From NCBI GenBank assembly GCA_022563855.1, contig JADFMN010000003.1, forward strand, positions 124,001-188,000: a stretch of DNA of 64,000 nucleotides, given 5' to 3'. Positions 36,390-57,616 of this stretch are shown here, one piece after another (position 1 is the first letter of the stretch; each line of letters begins with the position of its first letter). Position numbers and translations under genes: made by a program. The notes beneath the pieces are model-generated. The model ran no database searches. It saw only the letters and a list, made by a program, of their open reading frames with translations, and was not told where the DNA came from. Origin of the DNA: Armatimonadota bacterium (GTDB lineage Bacteria; Armatimonadota; Fimbriimonadia; Fimbriimonadales; Fimbriimonadaceae).

Positions 36390-36426
36390 AAACCCCTCTC
36401 CCTTAGCACACGGGAGAGGGGTTTTT
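36390..36426 (+). terminator. Strong intrinsic terminator
   Basis: AAACCCCTCTCCC, the loop TTAGCACAC, GGGAGAGGGGTTTTT. The 10-bp GC-rich stem is perfect and flanked by A and T runs, so it could work on both strands. It ends the transcript of the secreted protein gene. Confidence 0.92.
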
Positions 36427-36428
36427 GT

Positions 36429-36455
36429 CGGAGTGCGCGAACGTGTTCGCGCTTT
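36429..36455 (+). repeat. REP hairpin, copy A
   Basis: CGGAGTGC, core GCGAACGTGTTCGC, then GCTTT. It lies 67 bp upstream of the RAYT start. The GGAG head followed by a dyad is the hallmark of REP sequences tied to RAYT proteins. It is in opposite orientation to copy B on the other side of the gene. Confidence 0.85.
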
Positions 36456-36521
36456 CCCGAGCACCCAAGAGAGACTTCCGCACCCTTGACGAAGCCCTGC
36501 AAAAGCGACCAAGCTATTACC

Positions 36522-37052
36522 ATGCGCACATGGCCGCACGCACCTTCGAAGTGCGTCACGTCGCCAGGGACGTATATCGTCACCGCTGGCACCTACCATA
36601 AGGAGCCGCTGTTCAAGGATCCGGAGAAACTCGAGATCCTCTACAACCTGCTGTTAGAAACTGCAGACGAACAGGGGTGGGACTTGTTGGCGTGGGCCGT
36701 CTTCGCCAACCACTATCACATAATCGGAAACAGCCCGCAGATCACAAATCCAGTTGGCAAACTGTGTGGCAAGGTCCACATGAAAACAGCGAAGGCGATC
36801 AATTTGCTCGACGAAGCGCCCGGGCGAATGGTCTGGTACCGATCCTGGGATCGGCTGATCACTTACGAGAAGTCGGTGATGGCGCGCATCGCATACGTTC
36901 ATCACAACCCGGTCAAACACGGGCTCGTCGCTCGGGCCGAGGATTATCCTTGGTGTTCTGCGGCGTGGTTCCTGCGGGAGGGCGACCGGCCGTTCGTAGA
37001 GAGCGTGCTGTCGTTCAAGACCGATCGGGTTAGCGTCGACGATGACTTTTAG
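36522..37052 (+). CDS. REP-associated tyrosine transposase (RAYT)
   Basis: This 176-residue Y1 (IS200-like) transposase is of the RAYT group. It starts PHAPSKCVTSPGTYIVTAGT and has the HUH metal motif in VFANHYHIIGNSP and the catalytic Tyr in IAYVHHNPVKHGLV, followed by DYPWCSAAWF. RAYTs are domesticated single-copy enzymes that nick REP hairpins and are thought to spread REPs or REPINs. I chose ATG 36522 by family; a TTG 12 codons upstream is possible. It is flanked by inverted REP copies A and B, and three more copies lie elsewhere in the window. Confidence 0.92.
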   Translation: MRTWPHAPSKCVTSPGTYIVTAGTYHKEPLFKDPEKLEILYNLLLETADEQGWDLLAWAVFANHYHIIGNSPQITNPVGKLCGKVHMKTAKAINLLDEAPGRMVWYRSWDRLITYEKSVMARIAYVHHNPVKHGLVARAEDYPWCSAAWFLREGDRPFVESVLSFKTDRVSVDDDF

Positions 37053-37084
37053 TCGATGCGATATCCACTGGCGCGTTGCTGGGC

Positions 37085-37111
37085 AAAGCGCGAACGCGTT
37101 CGCGCACTCCG
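37085..37111 (-). repeat. REP hairpin, copy B
   Basis: On the minus strand: CGGAGTGC, core GCGAACGCGTTCGC, then GCTTT. It differs from copy A by one base in the loop and is inverted with respect to it. It lies 32 bp after the RAYT stop. Confidence 0.85.
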
Positions 37112-57506: not shown

Positions 57507-57616
57507 CGGAGTGCGCGGACGCGTCCGCGCTTTTGACAGTGTTGGAAACCGGATTCCGTTCCAGCGGAACTGCTCTGCTAGCGCTATGGAAAGCTCCGAC
57601 TCGTCGGAGCACTCCG
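57507..57616. repeat. REPIN: REP copies C and D in inverted orientation
   Basis: Copy C (57507-57533, plus) is CGGAGTGC, core GCGGACGCGTCCGC, GCTTT. Copy D (57590-57616, minus) is CGGAGTGC, core TCCGACGAGTCGGA, GCTTT. Two REPs facing each other with a 56-bp spacer form a REPIN, the unit thought to be moved by RAYT enzymes. It lies 16 bp after the serine hydrolase gene and 56 bp before the IS1595 element. Confidence 0.8.

Follow-up and report, generated by a model that had tools for sequence, protein, structure and literature searches.

A gene for a Y1 transposase that lies between two mutually inverted hairpins may be an insertion sequence with its two ends, a gene set by chance among terminators, or a RAYT (TnpA-REP) accompanied by its cognate REPs. 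Here, we ask which of these accounts for such a locus in a 64,000-nt stretch of Armatimonadota DNA (the window). The locus is very probably a REPtron, in which a host-resident Y1/HUH single-strand endonuclease sits between inverted cognate REPs and is predicted to bind and cleave them and to confer mobility on REPINs. The gene with its predicted fold and catalytic residues, the inverted REPs, the dispersed intergenic REPs and doublets, the compensatory stems and the co-occurrence of RAYT and repeats are directly supported by our data. The gene and the members of the repeat family in the window are as follows; the REPIN and the single REP are additions to the preliminary description.

36522–37052, + strand: RAYT (TnpA-REP) gene, 176 amino acids (NF047646 score, 4ER8 fold match and invariant residues)
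36430–36455, + strand: upstream REP, GGAGTGCGCGAACGYGTTCGCGCTTT (family covariation and inspection of the locus)
37085–37110, − strand: downstream REP, inverted, with GGAG pointing outward (inspection of the locus)
57508–57615, unstranded: REPIN, an inverted doublet 108 bp long with outward heads and two different stems (GCGCGGAC and GCTCCGAC types); the genome has six such doublets
2543–2568, − strand: single REP GGAGTGCGGCGATTCATCGCCGCTTT of the same family, with four identical copies in the genome (family search)

The upstream REP comprises a GGAG head, a T spacer, a stem (GCGCGAAC/GTTCGCGC) and a CTTT tail region; the stem has 8 bp and a 2-nt loop as aligned, and 7 bp and a 4-nt loop in the energy fold. 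Both hairpins are 26 nt long and inverted to each other with GGAG outermost, and their 18-nt cores differ by a single base. The preliminary description, which saw a RAYT framed by inverted REP hairpins with cores one base apart, in the classical arrangement, is thus borne out in positions, orientation and core sequence, and the properties of the locus match those of the RAYT/REP units of PMC2817692. The 200-bp flanks of the gene gave an inverted-repeat score of 27, compared with maxima of 14 in 500 shuffles and 13 among 500 random window pairs, and the expectation for the GGAG-plus-core pattern with three mismatches is 0.00 per window. Folding of the flanking hairpins as single-stranded DNA gives each a stem of 7 bp and an energy of −8.6 kcal/mol, with z-scores relative to shuffles of −3.2 for one and only −1.6 for the other; it is thus the repeat family with its covariation, and not the energy, that carries the case for REPs. 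The open reading frame spans 36486–37052, and its probable start is the ATG at 36522, since orthologs align from about residue 13 of the frame. A further hairpin, CCCCTCTCCC...GGGAGAGGGG, lies at window positions 36390–36424, just 5′ of the upstream REP, and palindromes resembling it are also present in the DNA flanking another REP (L033) and the RAYT of a relative (L132).

The encoded protein belongs to the RAYT family, scoring 90.7 bits against NCBIfam NF047646 (REP_Tyr_transpos; cut-off 80); its match to the IS200 family NF033573 reaches 12.6 bits (cut-off 55), and that to Pfam Y1_Tnp is sub-threshold. The AlphaFold model (pLDDT 88) aligns over 160 residues with E. coli RAYT bound to REP (4ER8; Z 17.6), pointing to a TnpA-REP fold, and IS608 TnpA is the second-best structural match (Z 11.6). 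The HUH motif is H64-Y-H66, within NHYH, and the single catalytic tyrosine is Y125, within YVHHNP; H64, H66 and Y125 are invariant across nine orthologs. Together with WY, these motifs (the last as YVHxNP) and a conserved N-terminal WPHAPxK characterize the protein. Searched by tBLASTn, plasmids yielded relatives at only 25–31% identity.

We searched the 3.2-Mb genome by patterns and with a covariance model. The genome-wide count that the preliminary description had proposed speaks against a pattern frequency no higher than expected: GGAGTGCNCNNNCGNGNNNGNGCTWT, with one mismatch allowed, has 24 matches in the genome versus one for the reversed control. The covariance model recovers 40 related hairpins (E ≤ 0.01). 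The intergenic bias asked for in the same place is equally evident, as 23 of 24 checked sites lie outside predicted genes (binomial 1.9e-21; 8e-16 when each doublet counts once) and 89% of the window is coding, according to a codon-usage caller written for the analysis and used without annotation cross-check. The genome thus holds dispersed, intergenic, palindromic REP copies beyond chance. They fall into several stem types: the A type (GCGCGAAC), with three copies, namely the two beside the RAYT gene and only one further copy, on contig 2; the G type (GCGCGGAC), with ten; the S type (GCTCCGAC), with eight; and others. Twelve of the repeats form six inverted doublets, each pairing one G with one S repeat and each spanning 108 bp, a constrained span that identifies them as REPINs; these abundant doublets therefore carry stems different from those flanking the gene. 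A 108-bp doublet with one S-type arm also occurs in G001, a genome from the same genus.

Some individual copies deserve mention. One G-type REP lies within a long predicted gene (L071, G000:C1:199514). The REP at L041 (G000:C5:229137) is broken after GGAGTGCGCGGACGC by a second palindromic repeat, GTCATCCTGAGCTCAG...CTGAGCTCAGGAGAATG. Degenerate tandem stretches resembling GGTTCGGGTT adjoin several REPs (flanks of L038, L098 and L099).

Alignment of 23 distinct repeats from several genomes revealed both-sided change in six of the eight stem pairs, with 94.6% of cells paired and a covariation score of 0.473, versus 0.148 for shuffles and at most 0.134 for slid controls. Invariant among the aligned repeats are the head (G1, G2, A3 and G4), the stem foot (G6 C7/G22 C23) and T24, of which the head, like part of the pairing, reflects selection, because repeats were collected by their GGAG head and paired stem. 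The both-sided changes deep in the stems of own-genome copies are not implied by this selection, as the search pattern left those positions free.

Gene and repeats also co-occur among relatives, and most of the repeats are in genomes that have the RAYT ortholog. Orthologs in G017, G012, G014, G029, G010, G013, G025 and G007 have oppositely oriented GGAGTGC hairpins (once GGAGCGC) whose stems are different but still paired; in G013 the gene lies at a contig end, with paired hairpin copies found on one side. Of six additional close orthologs in the phylum that came to light later and played no part in model building, five have GGAGTGC hairpins. A flanking GGAG REP pair was not detected at L059 (G016) or L133 (G084), where both RAYTs belong to the clade. 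The exact GGAGTGCGCGNACG type has almost no matches in relatives, because stems differ genome by genome, a problem that the covariance model overcame. In 41 genomes, all drafts or MAGs, at least five repeats occur in 7 of 10 with a RAYT ortholog versus 2 of the 31 that lack one (Fisher p 1.6e-4), an association that is not fully independent, since some of these genomes contributed to the repeat model and the cut at five repeats was chosen with the counts already known. The preliminary description had counted repeat-bearing relatives without a RAYT as evidence against it, and there are two: in G001 (68% complete) and G023 (94%) repeats are present and no RAYT of the clade was found, alignment search included, although the association over the 41 genomes is strong. 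G016 has a clade RAYT and lacks the repeats. REP-bearing genera surveyed in PMC3686654 likewise include strains without RAYTs. The clade itself is supported at 100/99, with the paralogs of this genome falling outside it. G014, assigned to the family of the present genome, has exactly the same RAYT as the MAG Chthonomonas sp. UBA2362 (NCBI phylum Armatimonadota), the closest named relative; this bears out the earlier suspicion of a lineage outside the gammaproteobacteria.

Described beforehand as single, the RAYT is so at the locus and as the one full gene of its clade, but not genome-wide: NF047646 has 12 matches in this genome at E ≤ 0.01 and 11 at 1e-6. Other Armatimonadota carry up to 9–10 RAYT-like genes, and G011, G013 and G038 have similar numbers; in a published survey of Pseudomonas and Stenotrophomonas strains, no genome had more than four RAYTs (PMC3686654). 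Several of the other RAYTs in the genome have their own, different inverted flanking hairpins, as does the one at G000:C6:166187-166633, flanked by CCCTCCACACTCGNAGTGTGGAGGG hairpins of a 37-copy family with no match in the reversed control. An alternative is that the REPs are mobilized by one of these 11 further RAYT-like genes, with the RAYT in the window only a passenger. The small number of A-type copies beside the gene, and the repeats of G001 and G023, would fit such an arrangement. We consider it improbable, however, because no GGAGTGC hairpins were found when the remaining 11 RAYT loci were scanned for inverted repeats and hairpins, and at least one of these RAYTs has a distinct repeat family of its own.

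Less probable still is an autonomous insertion sequence of the IS200/IS605 type, transposing as a whole with the hairpins as its left and right ends. Such elements encode enzymes of the same superfamily, in keeping with the second-ranking structural match to IS608 TnpA and the weak match to NF033573. That match, however, is far under its cut-off; IS200/IS605 elements are described as lacking terminal inverted repeats (PMC2817692), whereas the hairpins here are mutually inverted; and the RAYT clade has one full gene copy in the genome, yet hairpins and doublets without a gene occur dozens of times. We rejected this candidate, as neither a family score above the cut-off nor a multi-copy, near-identical unit was found. 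Equally remote, and also rejected, is the idea that ordinary transcription terminators or mRNA-stabilizing elements flank the gene by chance: the repeats are intergenic, GC-rich hairpins followed by TTT, and REPs may have such side effects, but terminators need no GGAG head (invariant in the aligned repeats, a weak point alone given that the head was used to pick them), and the idea is also countered by the 40 dispersed family copies with doublets of constant span and by the presence of that head, with different stems, on both sides of orthologous RAYTs.

For the REPtron, a mechanism can be proposed. The RAYT would most likely bind folded, single-stranded REP DNA at its 5′ GGAG head and at the foot of its stem, and attack by Y125 would cleave at a CT dinucleotide, leaving a 3′-OH and a 5′-phosphotyrosine. 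According to the published guide model, cleavage at CT is specified by A3G4; as GGAG retains both bases, the same cleavage is predicted here. The enzyme may then copy or move REP doublets (REPINs) into intergenic sites, while its own gene stays single copy. Because the A-type stems differ from those of the doublets, we infer mobilization of the doublets by this RAYT from their shared head, foot and tail.

The head itself departs from precedent. The preliminary description regarded GGAG as typical of RAYT-linked REPs; published heads are GTAG or GT(A/G)G (PMC2817692 among the sources), and a word-start search of the RAYT/REP papers examined returned no match for a GGAG head. The repeats thus stand outside the GTAG superfamily, defined by 5′ GTAG or GTGG, and GGAG looks like a clade-specific variant. 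In E. coli RAYT, no change of the tag is tolerated, and tag contacts include Q95, position 100 and R104. In sequence alignments of the GGAG clade, R104 corresponds to T, D or G and Q95 to Y, F, H or W. The nearest GTAG-flanked relative (L135), more distant and just outside the clade, has GTAG hairpins and keeps R at the R104 position, as do the paralogs L026, L027 and L028 of this genome, which have GT[AG]G heads; this comparison covers paralogs with a confident head, and thus not L021, L022 and L024. Since L135 also has Y at Q95, that position alone does not track the head. Replacement of the R104 equivalent together with the GGAG head suggests a testable specificity switch, although the two changes represent one evolutionary event and are thus a correlation only. 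We tentatively propose, as a possibility somewhat short of even, that this Armatimonadota RAYT clade switched its tag from GTAG to GGAG and R104 to Thr, Asp or Gly, making the lineage orthogonal to the co-resident GT[AG]G systems.

These results place REP/RAYT and REPIN biology in the Armatimonadota, a little-studied phylum, for which we found no earlier report in the literature searched; judging from titles and abstracts, the articles retrieved for Armatimonadetes survey communities and do not deal with RAYTs. They also indicate that a tag said to be immutable for E. coli RAYT differs in a natural clade, and the roughly one dozen RAYT-like genes in this one genome, several with their own hairpins, offer a natural set for tests of self versus non-self repeat discrimination. 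The locus resembles the REPtrons and RAYTs of Stenotrophomonas, Pseudomonas and E. coli (PMC2817692, PMC8266576) in its HUH-Y1 enzyme, its two inverted flanking REPs, the dispersal of REPs between genes, the several REP classes per genome and the compensatory stem changes, and it differs from them in its GGAG rather than GTAG or GTGG head, in the replaced R104 equivalent, in its host phylum and in copy number (about 40, versus tens to hundreds or more). The doublets are similar to the REPINs of Pseudomonas fluorescens SBW25 (PMC3116915) in being inverted, intergenic and constrained in span; in contrast to those, there are only six here, and every one combines two different stem types. Compared by the published motif table only, the protein is also similar to TnpA-Y1 subclass 2.8 of Cyanobacteria (PMC6006769), which shares NHYH, W[YH] and Y[VI]HxNP and is described as proline-rich at the N terminus, where the RAYT in the window has WPHAPxK; the heads in that subclass are GT[AG]G, whereas those of the REPtron described here are GGAG.
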